Source: a virus
DNA: 37,811 bases
Strand: one strand, 5' to 3'
Virus record (IMG/VR): IMGVR_UViG_3300025154_000245
Span: 1 to 37,811 of that record
Numbering within the stretch: the stretch's first letter is position 1; each line of letters starts with the position of its first letter. Positions 22,316 to 37,796 of this stretch are shown piece by piece. The translations under genes and the position numbers were made by a program. The notes beneath the pieces are model-generated. The model made no database searches. It saw nothing but the letters and a program-made list of their open reading frames with translations, and had not been told where the DNA came from.

Positions 22316-24160
22316 ATGGGAATCACTCCCGACGGAGACCGAAGCAAGAAATGGCTCTGGCTGGCGCGGAAGAAACTTGCGCAGTGCCGCGAGGATGGGC
22401 TACTCGGCAAGACCATTAAGCATGACGGGTTCACCATCAGGGTAGCCGATGTTGAGGGTAATGCCGTAGGAAGAGTGACGGCGCCGATGGGTGCCGTTGT
22501 CATTTGTACCGGACCGGACGCCAGCTTCGACAATCGTGCCCTCATTATGGAGGCGGATAACTGGCTGGGTGCGTTCGGCGCTGTCGGCAATCTCAACACC
22601 CTGTACCGCCCTGATCAGCCCACCGGCTGGACCAACTATATCCACGACACTAGCGCGGAGGATCTCGCTGCCCTCGGCTACGAAGCGGCGCCGTGGGTGC
22701 CGACCAGCCCGCTCAACGTCTACCCGCCTTCCAAACTGCACACCTACACCTACGCCGACCTCTACTTCAACACCATGCCGACGCCGGTTATCCTGCCGTT
22801 CCGCGACGGTGAGGCGTACTGGGCTGCCGTCAGCGGGGTCGTATGGAAAGACGCGCAGTACCACTCTCTGGCCGAGGCCTTTGTCAATTATTACGTCGGC
22901 AACGGGTCCGCGCTTGGCAACCGGGTGTCCTATTTCGACCAGAATGCCTTCGGTGACGCGACGACGGTCTCCTACCAGATTATGCCCTCGACCGGCGCAG
23001 CTCTGGTCATGCACCACATCGGTCTCTACTACGCCACGGTAGGCTCACCGGCCCGGGTCCGGCTCGCAGCTTCTTACTTCATCGGCAATGACAAGGTACT
23101 CACCTCCTACGCATGGTACGGCGATGACGGGGCGACGGACAGTTGGGTCGATGTGGTCGCCGGGCTCCGCACCATAATCAGCAATCCGTCTTCCTACACC
23201 AGTTCCGCAAAACCGCTTGGGCAATACGCCTTTTCCACCACGCTGAACGCTGCACCGACGCTGCTGAGTTGCACCGACCTGACGGCAACAGGCTGGTCCG
23301 GCGGGCCGTATGACGATCAGGCATGGTTTGCAGCCAACCCAGGAGAAGTCCGATGGAAGCTGTTTTACACGATCCACACACCTGGGTTGGCTCCGGTCAC
23401 CGTGAACTCGGATTACTTTCTCTCCACGCTGGACACCATGGCCGGTGGTGCGATCCTCAGCGGACCGACTGACTGGGATCTGGCTCGGCTGACGATGTAT
23501 CAGCTCTTCCCAAGCCCGAACCAGAATTGGCTGGTGCCCTACGACTCAGTCATGTTCCATGACGGCAATGATGTTGTCTACACCTGGACCAGGAAATACG
23601 GCGGGTTCAGCTTCAACTCCGCCCCTACTGGGATCACTTCCGAAGCAATGACCATGCCGGCGGAGACCGCGGTGGACGGAGTGCGGCCGACAATTTATTT
23701 CTGCGGCACCTTCGACAGTGTTGATATGTTCCTCTGCGTCTGTGAGCAGATGGCGTTCTCCGGCCCCTACTCCGCCCCGGTCTCCACTGGTCACGAGGTC
23801 ATGGCGGTCTACTACGGCTCGCCGTTCACCTCCTGGACGAAGTTTGCGGATCCGGCGGTAGGGCTGCATCTCGTCCATGTGCGGCCAGTCTCAGTCGAGC
23901 CCGGGGATATTAAGCTGCTCGGAGTGCTGGAGGATGAAGTAACTCCAGGATACAACTTCGCCTTCTTCAACCACACTGCAGGTGTGGGGGCCTGGGCCAA
24001 GCTGGGGAGGCTGCCGGTCGATGTATCACCGTATTATAATTGGGGGGTTGGTCTTTTTGGCAATGGTATTCTTGTAAATAAAATGATATCATTTATTAAC
24101 CAACCATCAGCACTGCCGCAAATGCCGGTTGGACCCTACAGCATGTATGAGCAGCCATGA
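22316..24160 (+). CDS. Large tail protein, unknown (614 aa)
   Basis: ATG 22316 lies one base after the preceding stop; an in-frame TTG at 22304 would add four residues. It has a short helical N-terminus (KKWLWLARKKLAQCREDG), then a long beta-rich body with many Tyr and Trp and no repeat I can see. Residues 26-60 include a strand pair (FTIRVADVEG, RVTAPMGAVVIC). Bases 24030-24110 are sharply AT-richer than the rest, so the C-terminal 30 residues may be a recent replacement. It is likely a tail spike or fibre core protein. ATGA couples it to the next gene. Confidence 0.6.
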   Translation: MGITPDGDRSKKWLWLARKKLAQCREDGLLGKTIKHDGFTIRVADVEGNAVGRVTAPMGAVVICTGPDASFDNRALIMEADNWLGAFGAVGNLNTLYRPDQPTGWTNYIHDTSAEDLAALGYEAAPWVPTSPLNVYPPSKLHTYTYADLYFNTMPTPVILPFRDGEAYWAAVSGVVWKDAQYHSLAEAFVNYYVGNGSALGNRVSYFDQNAFGDATTVSYQIMPSTGAALVMHHIGLYYATVGSPARVRLAASYFIGNDKVLTSYAWYGDDGATDSWVDVVAGLRTIISNPSSYTSSAKPLGQYAFSTTLNAAPTLLSCTDLTATGWSGGPYDDQAWFAANPGEVRWKLFYTIHTPGLAPVTVNSDYFLSTLDTMAGGAILSGPTDWDLARLTMYQLFPSPNQNWLVPYDSVMFHDGNDVVYTWTRKYGGFSFNSAPTGITSEAMTMPAETAVDGVRPTIYFCGTFDSVDMFLCVCEQMAFSGPYSAPVSTGHEVMAVYYGSPFTSWTKFADPAVGLHLVHVRPVSVEPGDIKLLGVLEDEVTPGYNFAFFNHTAGVGAWAKLGRLPVDVSPYYNWGVGLFGNGILVNKMISFINQPSALPQMPVGPYSMYEQP

Positions 24161-24918
24161 GCCTGACAAAACAGATCGGAGAAATAGTCGTAGCCCCTGC
24201 CATTCCTGGTGATCCTGGGTACCCGGGCCAGCCCTACATTCCGCCCTACTGAACTACCGGAGGAACCACGGTCTGTGGTTACGTTTGGTACACAGGAGAC
24301 GGGGGGAGCGGGATACCTATCTGGGATGGAACCGGAGGATACGGTGGCGGAGGCGGTTCCGGGTTCTGGGCCTGGGAATGTTGGGAAGAAGGTGATGCAG
24401 TGTGCTACCCGGCGCAGCCTGAAATACCGGCTATCCCACCCACTCCGCCAACGCCGGAAGTGATTATCCAGAACCTGAATATTGGCTGGAACGCACACTC
24501 TCGCACCGTGGATAAGCTCGGGCGCGGGGAGTATCTGCAGTTTACTTTCGGCACCGGCAGCCGGGGCGTCGTCGGTATCGCACTGGCGTATCTGGAGGGA
24601 GGGCTGCCTGAGCAGCACCTGCACGGGCTCGTCATCGATGTGACTGGGATCAAGGTCTACGAGGCCGGAGTAGTCAAAGAGACAATCGAGACAGTGCAGG
24701 TGGTGGACACTGTCATCCGAATTTACCGGCAAGAAGAGGACAATTCCATTGTCTACCATGTCCAGAACGCGGCGGGTGGGAGCACCGCGGTACAAAGTAC
24801 TGCACCGCTTCTCTCCAAGCTGGCGAAATATTACGTCTACTCTTGGCTCTACATGGGCGGCGACGTGGTGCCGGAAAACGACTACCTGGAGGGCGAAGTC
24901 CAATTCGCGGAGGCGTAA
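24157..24918 (+). CDS. Tail protein with in-frame UGA; candidate selenoprotein
   Basis: The ATG overlaps the upstream stop as ATGA. From 24157 to the TAA at 24918 the frame is open for 252 codons except one TGA at 24250-24252 (codon 32). The N-terminal part (MSLTKQIGEIVVAPAIPG) and the downstream part (CYPAQPEIPAIPP, IIQNLNIGWNAHSR) both match what I know of one phage tail-protein family, so they are one gene. The region after the TGA is plainly coding (VCGYVWYTGDGG). UGA32 lies eight residues before Cys40; Cys75 and Cys83 have the same spacing. A SECIS-like hairpin follows. Readthrough as Sec, a nonsense mutation or a sequence error are all possible. GTG 24400 could restart a shorter product. 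Confidence 0.75.
24255..24290 (+). promoter_or_regulatory. SECIS-like hairpin after the in-frame UGA
   Basis: The upper stem AACCAC/GTGGTT (24264-24269 with 24275-24280) closes a GGTCT loop. The lower stem TACCG/TGGTA (24255-24259 with 24286-24290) has one G-T pair, with an internal loop between stems. The apical loop starts 17 nt after the UGA. From memory, the E. coli fdhF SECIS has a GGUC loop about 18 nt after its UGA. The bulged U of fdhF is not evident here. Confidence 0.5.
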
Positions 24919-26124
24919 ATGCAGGGAACAGGCACACTGACAGCATACGCAGGTCAGTCGATAACCTTTCAAGGTACCGGCCAAATACTTTTCTGGGGGG
25001 CGAACTTCTCCGGGGACGGCACCCTGTCCGTACCCGGGCTGCCAGGGGAGGTTACGTTCTCTGGCGAAGGGGAGCTGTACGCCTACGCAAAGCGGGCAGA
25101 CGGCGGCTCTGTAGAGCTTTCAGCTCTGACAAGCATTGGATCTGACTATGAGTACAAAACCGGCTATGCCGAACTCTCTGCACTCACTACGGAAGCGCGT
25201 GGAGGGTCCTACGTTCCCGCTACCGCGGTTACCGGTTATGGCAATATCCAGCCGCTCGTCTCCGCTGGCCACATGGTCTGCACCCACATCATGACTGGCG
25301 ATGCGGACCTCTCCGCCCTGGGCTCCCTCGGAGCTGACTACCGGTACGGCGTGTCCAGTGATGATCAGAACCTCGGCGCCCTTGGCAGTCTCGGACACAG
25401 CGGGTACCCAGGTCAGTGGTTCATGACAGAGCATCTCTACGCGGTGGACGCCACCTCACTGCAGTCCGAGCTGGTTCTTGTCATTACCTCGGAAGGCACC
25501 ATCACATCAGTCATGACCATGACCCGCGAGGTTGCGCTGGAAATGGTCTCTAATATGGAGGGGTCGAGCGTCTTCTCGTTCCTTGGCACCTTCAGTCTCA
25601 GCATGCTCTCCGATGTGCTTGGCTGGTCGCGCAGTCTGATCACTCTGTCCGGCCGACCGTCCATGGACGACTCCGGGCAGGTGTGGTGCGTGAACATGGA
25701 CACCGGAGCCTCCAGCCAATATGAGCAGTATGGGTTCAACGACTTCTTCGAGCGAGACGGCTATTTCTACGGCATCGCTGAGGACGGCATCTACCTGCTG
25801 GAGGGGACCCAGGACGTTGGTGAGGACATCGGGACTTACATCGACTTCGGCACCAATGATCTCGGTGTCCCGGGCCGGAAGAAAGTGCTTAATGTCCATA
25901 TAGGGATGTCTGACACGACGGATGCTACGTACCTGCGAGTCACTACCGCCGGAGACACGACCACCTACCTGATCGAAGCATGCCGACGGGGGGAGACCGG
26001 CTGGCGGGCGAAGGTACCGCCGGATGTGCAGGGCTGGGACTGGCGGCTTGAGCTGATCGGGACCGGGGAGCTTGATCTTGACGGGGTTACATTCTACCCG
26101 GCTAAATTATCCAGGAGGTTGTAA
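24919..26124 (+). CDS. Tail structural protein (401 aa)
   Basis: ATG directly follows the TAA of the UGA-containing gene. The N-terminus has short Gly-rich beta repeats (FQGTGQILF, FSGDGTLSV, FSGEGELYAYA), then ELSALTSIG / ELSALTTEA / LSALGSLG / LGALGSLG repeats. The C-terminal half (from about 170) is mixed with FFERDGYFYGIAEDGIYLL. This composition is typical of podovirus tail proteins placed before the ejection genes. It probably forms part of the tail tip with the preceding product. Confidence 0.62.
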   Translation: MQGTGTLTAYAGQSITFQGTGQILFWGANFSGDGTLSVPGLPGEVTFSGEGELYAYAKRADGGSVELSALTSIGSDYEYKTGYAELSALTTEARGGSYVPATAVTGYGNIQPLVSAGHMVCTHIMTGDADLSALGSLGADYRYGVSSDDQNLGALGSLGHSGYPGQWFMTEHLYAVDATSLQSELVLVITSEGTITSVMTMTREVALEMVSNMEGSSVFSFLGTFSLSMLSDVLGWSRSLITLSGRPSMDDSGQVWCVNMDTGASSQYEQYGFNDFFERDGYFYGIAEDGIYLLEGTQDVGEDIGTYIDFGTNDLGVPGRKKVLNVHIGMSDTTDATYLRVTTAGDTTTYLIEACRRGETGWRAKVPPDVQGWDWRLELIGTGELDLDGVTFYPAKLSRRL

Positions 26125-28369: not shown

Positions 28370-31300
28370 ATGGCGACGTTCGATGAGCTGCTGAACGCTT
28401 CCCAGCCGACCGAGGCCCAGGCCATGACCGGCTCCTTTGATGACTTGGTGAACACTGCCCCCACCGGCCTCCGCCCCCTGAGTGAGAAGCGCGGCGGGTT
28501 CGTCGCGTCGGTGAAGCGGACTGTCGGCCAGGGTGTTCAAGGTGCGGGGCAGCTTGCCGCCGACATCGTTCCAGGCGTAGGGCAGGACAACGCCGTCACC
28601 CAGTACGGGCGGGAGGTCATCGAGGCTAATCCGACTGAGGTCCAGAAACTTTCCGATATTCCGGAAAAACCACTCACTGCCGTTACCGAGGCAACCGGCA
28701 ACGCCGTCGCGTCCATGGCTGGGATCATCGGGCTTCGTGCTCTGGGGCAGGGCATCACCGCCTTATCGCCGGCTACTGGCGTGGCTGCACCGGTGGTCGC
28801 CGGGGTTGGGCAGCTCATCTCCTGGCTCGGGCCGACAGCCATCGCCGCCCTGCCGTCCTACGGTGGCATCAGGGATAAACAGATCGTAGACAGTCCGGAG
28901 GCGCAGACCTCAGCCAAAGACAAGGCCGTTGCCGCTCTGGGCGCCGGGACGGTAGGCTTCATTGAGCAGAGGTTTGGCCCGCAGAACTGGGGCGCTGCTG
29001 TGCTGACCAAGGAGGGCAGGGCCAGGCTGGCCAAGATGTTCTCTGGATCCTCCCGGCTCGGAGCCGTGGGTAAAGGACTTGCGTCCGGAGCCGCCATCGA
29101 AGGGGCGGAGGAGATCGTCCAGAATCCTGTCGAGCAGTTGGCCTCGTACCAAGACCCTCGCACTCCTGAGAATATTGAGGAGACTGTATTCGGCGGGGCT
29201 ATGGGCGCCATCGGTGGTGGTGTGATCGGCGGCGGGGTGGGTGGAGTGTCGTACCGGTCCCAGAAGACCAAAGATACTATCCAACAGCGCACCCTGGCGA
29301 ACCTGATCGAGGGGGCGGACATCTCTGTCGAAGGCGGGGTTGCGACGATTGCCAGAGGGCAGGAGCTGCCGTTCTCCATGCCAGTCGAGACTCTGGCCGC
29401 GCACCTGGCCGACGGCGGCGCCATCGATACCCTGACCCGGGAGCAGAGGTACGGGGAGCGAGGGGCTGGGTTTGCTCGGACGACCGGGCCAGCCGAGGTA
29501 GGGCAGGAGGATGCAGAAGCGCAGGCTTTTGGTCGCGAGGCCCTGGCCTACAACCAGGAGCGCAATCAGGTTGGGCTCCGCCGCTCGGCTGCCGGACGCA
29601 CTGACATGATGACGGAGCTCTCGCCAGAGACTGAGCTTTCCAGGTATCAACCCACCGTCGCCCGGCCGGACTACGCCGGCAGGACCGGGCCGGCCACCGT
29701 CAGTCAGGAAGAGGCAGAGGCCCTCAGCTTTGGGAGGGAAGCCCGGACAGTCAATCAGTTGCGCAATGAGCAAGGTCTTCGCCGGGCAGCGGCCACCACT
29801 GGCGCTGTAACTCCCGAGGGCACTCCGCTGGCCGAGGCGCCGCTCAGTACCTACGAGCCCACCGTCGCCCGGCCGGACTACGCAGGCAGGACTGGGCCGG
29901 CCACCGTCAGTCAGGAAGAGGCAGAGGCCCAGGAGTTCAAGCGCGAGTCGCTGGCCTACAACCAGGAACGCAACCGCACTGGCCAGCGCCGAGACTTCCC
30001 GGGAAGGGAGACAGCACAGGTGCCGCAGGAGCAGACACCGGAGGAGGCCCTGCTCAATTCATACCAGCCCGAGGTCCCGGGCGCCGTACCGCCGCCCATT
30101 GTCCGTTCGGACGGCAAGCCATTCGCCACTCAGCGAGCAGCGGAGTCCGCGGTGAAGCGGTTCAAACTGGCTGAAGGAAGCTACGAGATCCAGAAAAACA
30201 AAGACAGGTTCACCGTTGTGCGCAAAGGTGCGCAAGAGGTAGCTGAGCAAGAGGCCACCGCCGAGGATATCGCAGCGGCTCAGGCCGACTATGCCGCTTT
30301 CCAGAAGCAAGAGAGCAACCTCGCCAAGCCGCCCAAACCGCCGAAGGAGAAGCCAACCGCCCCTAAAACAACTGGGGTCAAGGTCAGGTTCACCGGTACC
30401 GGCGGCGGGCCGCAGGTGGTTGAGGTGGTGCGCAAGGAGCCGGCCCAGCCCGGTGACCTGCCGGGTGAAGAGTTCTACACAGTGGTCAATACCCAGACCG
30501 GAGAGAGCGGGGTCGTCTCCGCCGAGGACATTACGCCGGTCAAGGGGCAGGAAGAGGCCTTCACGAATATCAGTAACGCAGTTGACAAATCCTCCGAGTC
30601 GCAGTATTCTGTAAATGAAGGGAGTTACAATAGTCGTGACTTCAAGAATTACGACTTCGGGGAGGATACCAGTGAAGAAGCGAAAGCTGCGATTCCTGTA
30701 CTGCGTAAGGTACTCGTTCGCACCAAGACCGGTGCGCAAGAAGGTAGCACCATCACACCGCGTAAAGTTGCGGGGATTGTGCAGTCTGCGGTTGATCGGA
30801 TCGCTTCCGCGTTCGGTCGGCGAGTTGTGTTCTTCGCGTCATCCGATCCGGCGGCACTACTTCCGAACGGCTTTATAGACAAGAACGACCCGAAGACCAT
30901 CTACATCAACACTCAGTCTGGGTTCTCACCCACGACCATCCTTGGCCACGAGATCCTGCATGCCATGAAGGAAGAGCGGGCCGGGCTGTACAACATGCTC
31001 CGCGCCGCCGCGGTAGATAAGAACCTCAAGATCAACGCCTTCGAGGCGTACCGCAAGAAGCTGGAGCAGAACAAGTATTTCCAGGACCGGGAGATCACCA
31101 AGGAGGATGTCTACGAAGAGATGATCGCCGACTTCATGGGCGACGCCTTCTCCGATCCGGTGTTCTGGGAACAGCTCGCCACCGAGCGTCCGTCGCTGTT
31201 CAAGCGGATGTCCACCTACGTCGTTACCTTCCTCAACAAACTGATAGCGGCCCTCAAGCAGCAGAAGAACTTCCAATCCTATCAGTTCTTCATCGATGTC

Positions 31301-34300
31301 CAGAAGATGCGCGATGTCGCGGTCAAGGCCATGGCACAGTATGGCGGGGCCGAGGCGTTCATTGGCATGGAACCTACGGATATTCGGTTTGCGGCGCAGG
31401 CTGCTGCCAAAGCTATTTTCTCAAAATTGGAATCCGTTGCAACCTCAGCCTTCCAAGGCATGAAGGCGCAGTCCGTCGATCCCTTCCTTCTGAAACAGGG
31501 CGTGAAGAAGATCGAGATGGATGCTGTGGGCCTTCCTGAATTTCTCGCCGGGAAGAAACCGACCGACAAGGTGAGCCGTGAAGAGCTGATGAACTTCGTG
31601 CAGGCCAACGCGATTGAGCTTGAGGATGTGTTGTTGGGGGAGCCGCAATTTGAGGTGATGCGCCAATCTGAGGCGGTACGCAGATTCCCGGAAACGGCAG
31701 GGTGGTTCAGCGAAGGGCGAGAGTGGCTCGCTGTGGACAGGGGAGTACCGCTCTTTGAAATCCCAGACGTGACGACGAAGGAGGAAGCTCTCCGCGCTGC
31801 AAAGCAGATGTACCGCAACGATCTTGATGAGGACCGTGCGGACGTAACCCACTTCTCCCAGTACACCGAACCGGGGGCGGATGAGGGGAGCTACAGGGAG
31901 ATGTTTGTTACGGCTCCGTCCAAAAAGGCTGAAGTTCCGCCCTTCAAAAACGGTAAAGAGTATTACGAGTCTGGACAGTACGCCAAAGACTACGCAGACT
32001 TAGGAACATCGTGGGCGAAGCTAAATGCTTACCAACGAAAACTCGTTGAAGAGGCTTACCGAGAGGCGTCCCCCGCCTACATGCTGCAAGAACGTGGCGA
32101 ATGGCAAGATGGCCACTCCCAGTACAACGACATCAAGAACCCCATAGTCCGCATCCGCTTCAACACCGTGACCACGGCAGACGGCAAGCGCATTTTAAGA
32201 ATTGAGGAGATGCAGGGGCCGAGCAAAGACAATCAGGCCAAGATGCCTGCCTACCTTGTTGAAAATTGGCGACAACTCGCAGTCAAGCGTATCCTCGCCT
32301 ATGCCAAGGAGCAGGGGCTTGACGGGGTAGGGTTTGCGACGAAGCCGGGGATGAGCGCCGGGGAGACTCAGGCGGATAGGTATGATCTGAGTAAACAGGT
32401 GGATCGAGTGGACTACTACAAACGTCCAGATGGTCGGTACGACATAGAGGTGCTACGCCCTGGCCGTGGCACTGGGGACGAAGAAGGCATTGGCGGCCCA
32501 TTTGCCGCTGAGGCGTTGGAGGGAGTCGTTGGAAAGGAACTGGCCAAAAAAATAATCAACGATTCAGGTGAAAAGTTAAACTCCGGGTGGAGCCGGATGG
32601 CTGGCCTCGACCTGAAAATAACAAGCACCGGCCTTGTCAAGCTCTACGACCAAGACCTCCCCCGGATGCTGGAGGCTTACGGCAAGGGGAAGATGGGGGA
32701 AGCGGAGATTGCAACTGCGCCAGTAACGCAGGCGCAGAAGGACGCAAAGGCCGAGGGGCGGTTCTATAAAACGCAGGCCCTCCCCTACCTCCCCCTCACC
32801 GACAAGACCCCGGCAAGCTACCCGATGTTCTCCATCGCCGACGACGCCCTCGATCTCGGGCGAAAAAAGGTAAAAGAAGCCGCCTCCTCACTCGCCAATC
32901 CGAAGTCCCGGCTGCATGATCTGTACGTGCAGTATGCTCCGCAGTGGCTGTCCGTCACCCCGCTGCTCACCCTGGTCCAGACCTTCGGTAAGAAGTTCCC
33001 GCAGGTGGCTGAGTTCGCCCGGCACATCGACCGCGTGGTCGCTGTTAAGAACGACATTGTCAACAAGTCGAAGGAGCTGCATGACGAGGCCCTTGCCCTG
33101 GCCAAGGACGGAGTCGGGGAGAAAGTGCTCAACTACGCCATCGGCATCTCCTCGTTCAACCGAATGACCCCTTGGAAACCCTTGATGGAGCAGGACTGGG
33201 TGCCGAAGACCGGCACTGCCGGGGAACGGCTCAAGCTGGCCAACGTCGCGTGGAAACGGGCCAAGATGGACGAGGCCACCGGCCTGAAGCTGCACGAGGC
33301 CTACAAGCAGGCCCGGGACGCTTATGAGGCCCTGGGCACCGACGCGATGAAGACTGCCTACGAGGCCATGGTGGACGACCTGCACCGGGTCCGAGAGCGG
33401 GAGAAGAACAACCTGCTGTCCTTCATCGAGCAGGCATCGGTCGGCAACGCCGCTCTACGCCAGCAGCTCATGGCCCGGTTCAACGCTACCTTCAGCGAAC
33501 TGCAGGGTGCCTACTGGCCCCTCGCCCGCGTCGGTGACTTCACTCTCTCCTTCACCGAGAAGGACGGGACCAAGGTGGTCAAGCACTATGCCACCACCAA
33601 GCTGCGCCGGCTGGACCGCGAGCAACTGATCGAGGACGGCATACCCGCTGAGGCAATAACTGAGGGGACCAAGGACAAACGGACTCGGCAGGAGACCGCC
33701 ATCCCGCGGGAGCTGATGTCGCAGCTTATGGCCGCGGTTGAGGCGGAGAAAATGAAGGGGGTGGACCCGAAGGACGATGCTGCCATGGCCGCCGCGCTTG
33801 CAGACACTCAGGATGTTGTCAATGACATGAACCAGATCTGGCTGCGCTGGCAGCCGGAGACCTCCGCGCTCAAGAACTCACTGCGCCGCAAGAACGTGCG
33901 TGGGTTCTCGGAAGACATGATGCGCAGCTACTTGGATTATATGTCCCGGCATGCCAGCAATATCGCTTGGACCGAGCAGGGCCGTAAGATCGAGGCTACG
34001 CTCAAGAGTATGACTGAGGACATCAAGGAGGCCAAGGCCGCCGGCGGTGCCGATGTAACCATGCAGCAGAATATCCTGAACGATCTGCGCGGCCGGGTGC
34101 AGGCAATCAGGGAAGCTCGGGTCGGTCCGGTTGCTTCGGGCCTTGGCAAGCTAGGCACTGCTTACTACATGACCTCGCCCTCCATCGCCCTGGTGCAGAT
34201 GAGCCAGTTGGCGGTGATCACCTACCCCAACATGGCGGTCAAGTTCGGCAAGCTCGGGCTACGTGCGGTGACCAAGGCCCTGGCCGCCGGGACCAAGGCG

Positions 34301-35782
34301 GCGTTCTCTAAGGATTTCACAATCAAGGCGATCTTTGCCGATGATGCAGTCAACGACGTATTCGACCGGCTGCATGCCGTGGTCACTGAGAAGGATCGAG
34401 CACCGAGGGAAGACGGCCGCCCGCCGCAAGGGCTTAATAAGAATCTTGGAGACGACCTCTTTACCAGAGAGGAGAAACTCGAATGGATTGCCAAACTGAC
34501 CCCCTCTCAGAAGCAGCTCCTCGCCCTCCGAGAAGCGAACGCTCGCAACCTGCTCGACATCTCGGCGGCGCATGAGGCCTACGAGCTGACTCAGGGCAAG
34601 GACCCCAACGGACTGATGAGCAAGGCCTTCCGCTACGCCATGCTGCCCATGCAGCTCTCGGAGCTGGCCTCCCGCAAAGCAGCGGTGCTCGGCACCATGG
34701 ACCTGGCTACGCAGGAGAAGAAGGATTTCTTCGAGGCGATGGACGACGTGGCCTCGGTGGTCAATGACACTCTCTACTCCTATGCCAAGGAGCACAAGGG
34801 CTCGGCGTTGCAGGGCGGGGCGGCCCGGGTTCTGCTCCAGTTCCAGCACTACCGGATCATGACCATCATCAGGCTGATGTCGCTGTTCAACAACTCGGTT
34901 CGAGGGGAAACGCCGGAGATGAAGTCGGCGGCCCGGAAAGAACTGATCGGGATCCTCGGCATGACCGGCGCCCTGGGCGGGACACTCGGACTGCCCCTGG
35001 CCGGGGTGATCTTCGCGCTCTCCAACGCCCTGCTGGGTGACGACGACGAGCCCATCGACAGCGAGCTGATGTGGCGCAACTGGTTACGGGATAACTTCGG
35101 CGAGACCTTGGGCAACGTGCTGACCACCGGCGTACCCTACCTCGTCGGCGCCGACCTCTCTCGCCGGGTCGGCATGGGTGATATGTTCGGAATGCAGCAG
35201 ACTCCGCCGCCCGGGTACCACGGTGCGAAGCTGTTCACTTGGTGGGCCACCAGCCTGCTCGGCCCGGTCGCCTCGGTCGGACAGTCCGGGTTCCAAGGGT
35301 ACGACGAGATCGTCAACAAGGGCAACTACATGAAGGGCCTTGAGGTTGCAACGCCCAAACCGATCAGGGACGCTCTGAAGGCAATCCGCTTGGGCACCGA
35401 GGGGCTGAAGACCAGTTCGGGTAAACGGCTGTTGTCCGAGGACGCCATCGGCGTAGATGAGCTATTCCTGGCGGCGCTGGGGTTCAACCCGGAGGAAGTG
35501 TCCCGGGCACAGGCGGCGGAGCGCAGTTTGAACAAAATGTCCACTCTGATCTCTGAGCGGCGGGGGCGGATCATCCGCGATGCGGCGAGGGGGATCTTGG
35601 AAGGCGACACCCGGGAAGCCATGCAGGCTGTGCTGCGGTTCAACTCCCGGATGCCGCGCTACTCCATCAAGGGCGGGGACATCAAAGGCTCGGTGCGTAA
35701 AATTATCTCTGGGGAGATAGGGGACGCCGGGCTCAGAGATCGTCAGGTTGCTGCTCAGTACGAGATTCCGAGTTATCTGTAA
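28370..35782 (+). CDS. Giant ejection-type polyvalent protein with zinc-peptidase motif (2470 aa)
   Basis: The N-terminus repeats a short motif (TFDELLNAS, SFDDLVNTA). Hydrophobic helices follow, then a Gly-zipper (275-293), suited to membrane insertion. Three imperfect 67-69-residue repeats start near 372, 439 and 508 (TGPAxVxQExAEA). A metallopeptidase-like region holds HEILH at 860-864 with EEMIAD near 916 as a possible third ligand. Residues about 1020-1450 resemble phage large-polyvalent-protein domains (IEEMQ at 1278, RYDLSKQVD). The rest is long helices, with a membrane-like stretch near 2190-2223. It is probably carried in the virion and injected with DNA, like T7 gp16. Its stop overlaps a convergent gene. 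Confidence 0.82.
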   Translation: MATFDELLNASQPTEAQAMTGSFDDLVNTAPTGLRPLSEKRGGFVASVKRTVGQGVQGAGQLAADIVPGVGQDNAVTQYGREVIEANPTEVQKLSDIPEKPLTAVTEATGNAVASMAGIIGLRALGQGITALSPATGVAAPVVAGVGQLISWLGPTAIAALPSYGGIRDKQIVDSPEAQTSAKDKAVAALGAGTVGFIEQRFGPQNWGAAVLTKEGRARLAKMFSGSSRLGAVGKGLASGAAIEGAEEIVQNPVEQLASYQDPRTPENIEETVFGGAMGAIGGGVIGGGVGGVSYRSQKTKDTIQQRTLANLIEGADISVEGGVATIARGQELPFSMPVETLAAHLADGGAIDTLTREQRYGERGAGFARTTGPAEVGQEDAEAQAFGREALAYNQERNQVGLRRSAAGRTDMMTELSPETELSRYQPTVARPDYAGRTGPATVSQEEAEALSFGREARTVNQLRNEQGLRRAAATTGAVTPEGTPLAEAPLSTYEPTVARPDYAGRTGPATVSQEEAEAQEFKRESLAYNQERNRTGQRRDFPGRETAQVPQEQTPEEALLNSYQPEVPGAVPPPIVRSDGKPFATQRAAESAVKRFKLAEGSYEIQKNKDRFTVVRKGAQEVAEQEATAEDIAAAQADYAAFQKQESNLAKPPKPPKEKPTAPKTTGVKVRFTGTGGGPQVVEVVRKEPAQPGDLPGEEFYTVVNTQTGESGVVSAEDITPVKGQEEAFTNISNAVDKSSESQYSVNEGSYNSRDFKNYDFGEDTSEEAKAAIPVLRKVLVRTKTGAQEGSTITPRKVAGIVQSAVDRIASAFGRRVVFFASSDPAALLPNGFIDKNDPKTIYINTQSGFSPTTILGHEILHAMKEERAGLYNMLRAAAVDKNLKINAFEAYRKKLEQNKYFQDREITKEDVYEEMIADFMGDAFSDPVFWEQLATERPSLFKRMSTYVVTFLNKLIAALKQQKNFQSYQFFIDVQKMRDVAVKAMAQYGGAEAFIGMEPTDIRFAAQAAAKAIFSKLESVATSAFQGMKAQSVDPFLLKQGVKKIEMDAVGLPEFLAGKKPTDKVSREELMNFVQANAIELEDVLLGEPQFEVMRQSEAVRRFPETAGWFSEGREWLAVDRGVPLFEIPDVTTKEEALRAAKQMYRNDLDEDRADVTHFSQYTEPGADEGSYREMFVTAPSKKAEVPPFKNGKEYYESGQYAKDYADLGTSWAKLNAYQRKLVEEAYREASPAYMLQERGEWQDGHSQYNDIKNPIVRIRFNTVTTADGKRILRIEEMQGPSKDNQAKMPAYLVENWRQLAVKRILAYAKEQGLDGVGFATKPGMSAGETQADRYDLSKQVDRVDYYKRPDGRYDIEVLRPGRGTGDEEGIGGPFAAEALEGVVGKELAKKIINDSGEKLNSGWSRMAGLDLKITSTGLVKLYDQDLPRMLEAYGKGKMGEAEIATAPVTQAQKDAKAEGRFYKTQALPYLPLTDKTPASYPMFSIADDALDLGRKKVKEAASSLANPKSRLHDLYVQYAPQWLSVTPLLTLVQTFGKKFPQVAEFARHIDRVVAVKNDIVNKSKELHDEALALAKDGVGEKVLNYAIGISSFNRMTPWKPLMEQDWVPKTGTAGERLKLANVAWKRAKMDEATGLKLHEAYKQARDAYEALGTDAMKTAYEAMVDDLHRVREREKNNLLSFIEQASVGNAALRQQLMARFNATFSELQGAYWPLARVGDFTLSFTEKDGTKVVKHYATTKLRRLDREQLIEDGIPAEAITEGTKDKRTRQETAIPRELMSQLMAAVEAEKMKGVDPKDDAAMAAALADTQDVVNDMNQIWLRWQPETSALKNSLRRKNVRGFSEDMMRSYLDYMSRHASNIAWTEQGRKIEATLKSMTEDIKEAKAAGGADVTMQQNILNDLRGRVQAIREARVGPVASGLGKLGTAYYMTSPSIALVQMSQLAVITYPNMAVKFGKLGLRAVTKALAAGTKAAFSKDFTIKAIFADDAVNDVFDRLHAVVTEKDRAPREDGRPPQGLNKNLGDDLFTREEKLEWIAKLTPSQKQLLALREANARNLLDISAAHEAYELTQGKDPNGLMSKAFRYAMLPMQLSELASRKAAVLGTMDLATQEKKDFFEAMDDVASVVNDTLYSYAKEHKGSALQGGAARVLLQFQHYRIMTIIRLMSLFNNSVRGETPEMKSAARKELIGILGMTGALGGTLGLPLAGVIFALSNALLGDDDEPIDSELMWRNWLRDNFGETLGNVLTTGVPYLVGADLSRRVGMGDMFGMQQTPPPGYHGAKLFTWWATSLLGPVASVGQSGFQGYDEIVNKGNYMKGLEVATPKPIRDALKAIRLGTEGLKTSSGKRLLSEDAIGVDELFLAALGFNPEEVSRAQAAERSLNKMSTLISERRGRIIRDAARGILEGDTREAMQAVLRFNSRMPRYSIKGGDIKGSVRKIISGEIGDAGLRDRQVAAQYEIPSYL
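29651..29930 (+). repeat. Near-identical direct repeat inside the giant gene
   Basis: Bases 29651-29723 recur at 29858-29930, 207 bases apart, with about two mismatches. Both encode PTVARPDYAGRTGPATVSQE and on. A third, more diverged unit precedes them at about 29481. The DNA identity suggests recent duplication or gene conversion. Confidence 0.85.
30582..30610 (+). promoter_or_regulatory. Promoter-like site inside the giant gene
   Basis: TTGACA (30582-30587), 17 bases, TATTCT (30605-30610), followed by GTAAAT. It resembles the sites at 1920 and 27093 in its TTGACAA start. It lies in coding sequence and no good in-frame start follows nearby, so function is doubtful. Confidence 0.3.
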
Positions 35783-37400: not shown

Positions 37401-37796
37401 AACACCCCCGCCTCCTCGAACTGCCGGCGGAGATCCACCGCCAGGCGAACGAAGTCAGGATGCGCCGACGGGGCGCACCGCAGTTTGAAAATATGACTCC
37501 ACTCGGCCTACGCCCAGTATAGACAAAAACTTCCCGAGGGCGTACTGGCTGATGTGCGGCGGAAGTACGTCCATGTTCTCATAATAATCAGTCCGCACCA
37601 CAAAATTCGAGTGCTCCGCCATGGCGAGGTGGCCGGCGCTGATCAGTTTCTTGACGAACTTCTCGGCGCTGTCCGGGGTGATCTTGTCCTCCGATTTGTA
37701 GCAGGTTCGGCCCGCTCGTTCAATAAACTTGACAGCACCTTCGTAGTCCGTCGGCACTGCGCCCAGAAACTCAACTGATGGTTTTATGATTTTCAT
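37397..37796 (-). CDS. ThyX-like protein, shortened and frameshifted
   Basis: ATG 37796 follows GAGGTGG. The first 68 residues are like flavin-dependent thymidylate synthase ThyX (VEFLGAV, RAGRTCYKSEDKIT, ISAGHLAMAEHSNFVVR). The direct frame ends after 113 aa at 37455. Shifting +1 in the T run (plus-strand A's at 37488-37491) continues as KLRCAPSAHPDFVRLAVDL and ends with ATGA overlap at the next gene, giving 132 aa. This is shorter than the usual 200-plus. The RHRx7S active-site segment is missing between the two ThyX-like ends, so catalysis is unlikely. Repurposed or decaying gene. Confidence 0.55.

Follow-up and report, generated by a model that had tools for sequence, protein, structure and literature searches.

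The window, that is, the whole stretch of DNA analysed, comprises the 37,811 bases of an IMG/VR virus record and has podovirus-like gene content, including a terminase match, an SU10-type portal and adaptor, an N4-gp56-like capsid and an Hc3 head-closure protein. Relatives of this phage have Pseudomonas aeruginosa as their host, and no prophage relative is detected in two scans of a collection of genome contigs. A related capsid is encoded by Pseudoalteromonas phage vB_Pun_Y3, and a homologue of the gene described below is not recognisable in the two vB_Pun_Y3 proteins that were read. The window also contains a single ORF of 2470 codons at 28370-35782, of which the first 1000 residues are nearly without a profile match and which occupies a place similar to that of proteins annotated in related phages as giant virion-associated polymerase or DdrB-like. 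A fragment of a ThyX (thymidylate synthase complementing) gene lies near the end of the record at 37455-37796, a tRNA match of 36.8 bits with an irregular anticodon arm and without UCA in the loop, perhaps a degraded tRNA, is reported by Rfam at 300-372, and a short protein resembling a release factor and containing an RF-1 (GGQ) domain (PF00472, 1.7e-18) is encoded at 1386-1763, for which a link to stop-codon handling is a possibility. The features of the locus are as follows.

24157 to 24918, plus strand: candidate selenoprotein gene for a virion structural protein of 253 residues including Sec32, by phrog_26502 match and homologues.
24250 to 24252, plus strand: in-frame UGA at codon 32, the proposed Sec codon; kept in the relative L001, TGT (Cys) in the relatives L017 and L018.
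24255 to 24290, plus strand: hairpin of the bacterial SECIS type by folding, with 14 pairs in a two-part stem; conserved in L001, lost in L017 and L018.
24270 to 24274, plus strand: apical loop GGUCU by folding, 17 nt after the UGA; E. coli fdhF has this pentamer too.
24274 to 24276, plus strand: codon TGT of Cys40, in register with Cys75; it overlaps the last base of the loop.
24379 to 24381, plus strand: codon TGT of Cys75.
24403 to 24405, plus strand: codon TGC of Cys83, the conserved partner of position 32, in a C[YV]PA motif.
24909 to 24921, plus strand: GGAGG Shine-Dalgarno-like sequence, TAA stop and ATG start; the split point of the family gene, which is an unbroken 669-aa ORF in L017.
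24919 to 26124, plus strand: C-terminal half of the family protein as a separate gene of 401 aa, with a phrog_26502 match at 5.4e-26 over profile positions 389-615.

The frame at 24157-24918 starts with an ATG that overlaps the stop codon of the preceding gene (ATGA) and comprises 254 codons, namely 253 residues and TAA. The first-pass annotation of this DNA had reported a single TGA at codon 32 and cysteines at positions 40, 75 and 83, all of which are present; its count of 252 codons for the joined frame is corrected to 253 including the UGA. It had also stated that TGA serves as a normal stop elsewhere in this phage, and TGA indeed terminates 18 of the 38 likely genes of the window. The frame is matched by phrog_26502, annotated as 'virion structural protein', at 2e-07, and the gene order agrees with this match as well. 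By annotation of its relatives, the product is a candidate virion structural protein. The dN/dS ratio downstream of the UGA (codons 33-253) is 0.20, indicating purifying selection at the protein level. UGA32 is thus located inside one conserved coding frame, which is a criterion for bacterial selenoproteins.

RNA folding reproduces the two-part hairpin with a GGUCU loop that had been proposed downstream of the UGA. The hairpin has a free energy of -16.7 kcal/mol (z -2.2), and 3 of 200 shuffled sequences fold equally well. When the 1183 TGAs of both strands are ranked by fold energy, UGA32 is the 21st, and no other is followed by a 6-bp stem that carries exactly GGUCU as its 5-nt loop. The loop and its spacing had been described as close to those of E. 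coli fdhF, and the same GGUCU is found there 18 nt past the UGA (the fdhF matches came from 5,368 E. coli genomes). E. coli-type SECIS elements have a bulged U below the loop, and no such U is evident in the hairpin of the window. The published constraints on bacterial SECIS elements are a loop of 3-9 nt with G in its first two positions, an upper stem of 4-16 bp, a distance of 16-37 nt from the UGA and a minimum free energy of at most -7.5 kcal/mol (PMC13188914). The hairpin has a loop of 5 nt starting with GG, an upper stem of 6 bp, a distance of 17 nt and an energy of -16.7 kcal/mol, so that it lies within every published limit; the first-pass annotation had placed its distance from the UGA in the range of bacterial SECIS elements. 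However, a loose version of this model passes 706 of 1182 TGAs (60%) and is hardly selective in this DNA, so that the hairpin alone proves nothing and the comparison between relatives decides. An Rfam search gives no SECIS match, and a scan of the collection of viral contigs with the exact SECIS pattern finds a single contig, that of L001.

On this contig, IMGVR_UViG_3300009285_002272 (L001/L003), the protein has 74% amino-acid identity to that of the window and its gene has a UGA at the same codon; the loop and stem of the window are kept as well. About a third of the third codon positions differ between the two records in neighbouring genes, indicating that L001 represents an independent genome and not one error copied. 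In codons 33-45 the two sequences show no synonymous codon change, with a pS of 0.11 as compared to 0.48 before and 0.76 after this segment; the signal is modest, with a chance of about 0.02 at the rate of the gene itself. Loop and 3' arm of the stem are identical in the two records, and the 5' arm carries two Gly-to-Glu changes (GGA to GAA) with the fold retained. The window and L001 are the only two UGA-bearing genomes in the collections searched.

When the joined frame was compared with 50,697 phage records by tblastn, no match was obtained at E 1e-5. Homologues were reached through the neighbouring gene and the profile, and through alignment-based scans; a scan with an alignment of four sequences yielded L017 (IMGVR_UViG_3300025030_000431) and L018 (IMGVR_UViG_3300025000_000718), which are 52-53% identical over the length. 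In both, the gene is uninterrupted and codon 32 itself is TGT (Cys), as seen from L017 ...SPYIPAYC-AEVTGTVCGMVWY... and the window ...QPYIPPYU-TTGGTTVCGYVWY.... Among the distant homologues, KPP25 (PAYC), Rollin (PAYC), L013 (DAYC) and L019 (PAHC) have Cys at the UGA site. With the UGA entered as X, MAFFT places the Cys of KPP25, Rollin and L013 there in four modes, and aligning the fused protein over its whole length gives the same result for all four homologues; one MAFFT run with L013 placed the AYC motif wrongly, owing to the long insert of L013. A single homologue, ctwe8250, has no Cys at the site, and it lacks the second conserved Cys as well. Trp is found at the site in none of the homologues. 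Residues 33-81 are conserved as protein between the UGA and Cys forms, and the N-terminus is contiguous with the remainder of the protein in all Cys homologues. The suggestion that position 32 is equivalent to a Cys is therefore borne out by the two close and four distant homologues, and the alignment, which had been named beforehand as a possible refutation, leaves it standing with a Cys codon or UGA at the site. In the tree, the two UGA proteins are sister to L017 and L018, within a family that otherwise has Cys except for ctwe8250. This result indicates that Cys is, by parsimony, the ancestral state.

The hairpin is present in both UGA forms and absent from the close Cys forms, in a comparison of two against two sequences. 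L017 and L018 keep Val39 and Cys40 but encode them by GTA TGC instead of GTC TGT, so that the GGUCU loop is gone. The stem is also broken in the Cys forms: 71% of the cells pair over the four sequences, and several pairs that the two UGA forms share are lost in the two Cys forms. The Cys sequence folds otherwise and more weakly than the UGA forms. Judged from these sequences, Cys appears to have given way to Sec at this site, with a bacterial-type SECIS arising alongside.

The UGA forms are also distinguished by the split of the gene. The family protein has about 650 aa. L017 reads through the split point in one ORF of 669 codons, whereas in both UGA genomes a stop codon, TAA in the window and TAG in L001, directly precedes an ATG with GGAGG. 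Insertion of Sec is usually inefficient, and a start of its own would therefore protect the C-terminal half from loss at the UGA.

The cysteines suggest what Sec32 may pair with. In the stretches examined, KPP25 and L013 each have two Cys and no more, one at the UGA site and one just ahead of the Pro-rich segment preceding GWNA. The latter corresponds to Cys83, and the KPP25 pair is Cys27 and Cys88. The first-pass annotation had taken Cys75-Cys83 as a repeat of the spacing between positions 32 and 40. The sums of the positions are equal for the two possible pairs, both in the window (32+83 = 40+75 = 115) and in L001 (32+81 = 40+73 = 113), which is two residues shorter between the strands. Equal sums are expected of two cross-strand pairs in an antiparallel hairpin. 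In an AlphaFold2 prediction with four rows, strands 31-45 and 70-84 fit this register, with a pLDDT of about 30 in the hairpin region; the AlphaFold2 models are poor overall, with a pLDDT of 41 and 45. The remainder of the protein gives weak PDB matches to lectin/SPRY sandwich folds, a hint at most with such models. The most likely arrangement is that a selenenylsulfide between Sec32 and Cys83 is formed beside a disulfide between Cys40 and Cys75 in a β-hairpin of the stalk of the virion protein. The role of Sec32 would then be structural; a redox role is possible, with nothing pointing to it.

These observations are very probably explained by UGA32 encoding Sec. Because UGA is the leakiest stop codon and its readthrough can be stimulated by hairpins, a near-cognate tRNA, for Trp or another amino acid, might decode it in a programmed manner without selenium, with the hairpin as a mere stimulator. 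Such readthrough would account for the genuine full-length coding downstream of the UGA, but it is improbable, since the homologues have Cys and never Trp at the site, loop and spacing agree with the signal of SelB type in fdhF, and the hairpin is found in the UGA versions and not in the close Cys versions. It is still less probable that UGA32 is a real stop, such that a 31-residue leader peptide is produced and the remainder is made from an internal start. TGA is a normal stop in this phage, and an ORF of 172 aa could begin with the GTG at 24400. Against this stand the difference in the first possible internal start, which is this GTG, codon 82, in the window and an ATG at 3166 in L001, the conservation of residues 33-81 across UGA and Cys forms and the joined N-terminus of every Cys homologue.

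A sequencing error or a pseudogene is suggested by the fact that TGA is one base away from TGT and TGC. This is scarcely to be believed of a codon that recurs in the separate and diverged contig L001 and is followed by a sequence with a dN/dS of 0.20. The least probable explanation is a suppressor tRNA encoded by the phage or a general recoding of UGA. As a suppressor, the Rfam match at 300-372 was discarded, because ARAGORN finds no tRNA, this sequence included, and because the match has an irregular anticodon arm with no UCA in the loop; general recoding is opposed by the 18 of 38 likely genes that end in TGA. A match to tRNA-Sec or selB is likewise not found in the six phage records searched, most of them fragments, so that the host must supply both. 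P. aeruginosa, which relatives of this phage infect, has sel genes.

According to the Sec explanation, host SelA, SelB, SelC and SelD would decode UGA32 as selenocysteine in a virion structural protein, directed by the bacterial-type SECIS directly downstream with its GGUCU loop 17 nt past the UGA. Sec32 would take the place of the first Cys in a pair conserved among homologous phage proteins, and the Sec32-Cys83 selenenylsulfide would span the β-hairpin with the Cys40-Cys75 disulfide as a second rung. These bonds would stabilise an N-terminal stalk ahead of a lectin/SPRY-like domain. Sec and SECIS would have been gained together in the lineage of the window phage and L001, and the gene would have been split in the same lineage, with its own start for the C-terminal half perhaps as a safeguard. 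As a whole, this account, with ancestral Cys, Sec32 inserted by host machinery and SECIS, a Se-S bond and a split gene, is considered highly probable. The broader proposal that a tailed phage uses Sec in its virion as half of a structural Se-S cross-link, derived from a Cys-Cys pair and a new SECIS, and depends on host selenium for assembly, is somewhat less certain, but likely. If so, virion production is tied to the Sec pathway of the host, and close relatives in this family provide a natural comparison between the Cys and Sec forms of a single phage protein and a view of how a SECIS is born. In-frame UGAs annotated as stops in phages would then merit re-examination.

Known bacterial selenoproteins are mostly cellular redox enzymes. 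The first-pass annotation knew of no well-described virion selenoprotein in a tailed phage, and a search of an open-access literature collection likewise found no phage selenoprotein. The words 'phage' and 'virus' are both absent from two reviews of prokaryotic selenoproteins (PMC13188914, PMC9312934). A link between tailed phages and Sec is provided by Basilisk-like Bacillus phages, which carry tRNA-Sec genes (PMC6145125); what is encoded there is the tRNA and not a selenoprotein, whereas the records of the window phage and its relatives give no tRNA-Sec match. The glutathione peroxidases of poxviruses are viral selenoproteins of eukaryotic viruses. They share virus-encoded UGA-Sec with the candidate of the window, but differ in the type and location of the SECIS and are homologues of enzymes captured from the host. 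The phrog_26502 proteins of Pseudomonas phages KPP25, phiR18 and Rollin belong to the same family by profile and gene order and share the N-terminal PAY-Cys motif and the second Cys with the window protein, but have Cys in place of the proposed Sec and are encoded as 620-670 aa in a single gene, not in two. Selenoproteins of the E. coli FdhF type share with the window an in-frame UGA, a hairpin directly downstream within the bacterial SECIS limits, GGUCU at 17 nt (18 nt in fdhF) and Cys homologues of the same protein. The candidate described here differs from them in that it is encoded by a phage and annotated as a virion structural protein, and is not a recognised oxidoreductase.
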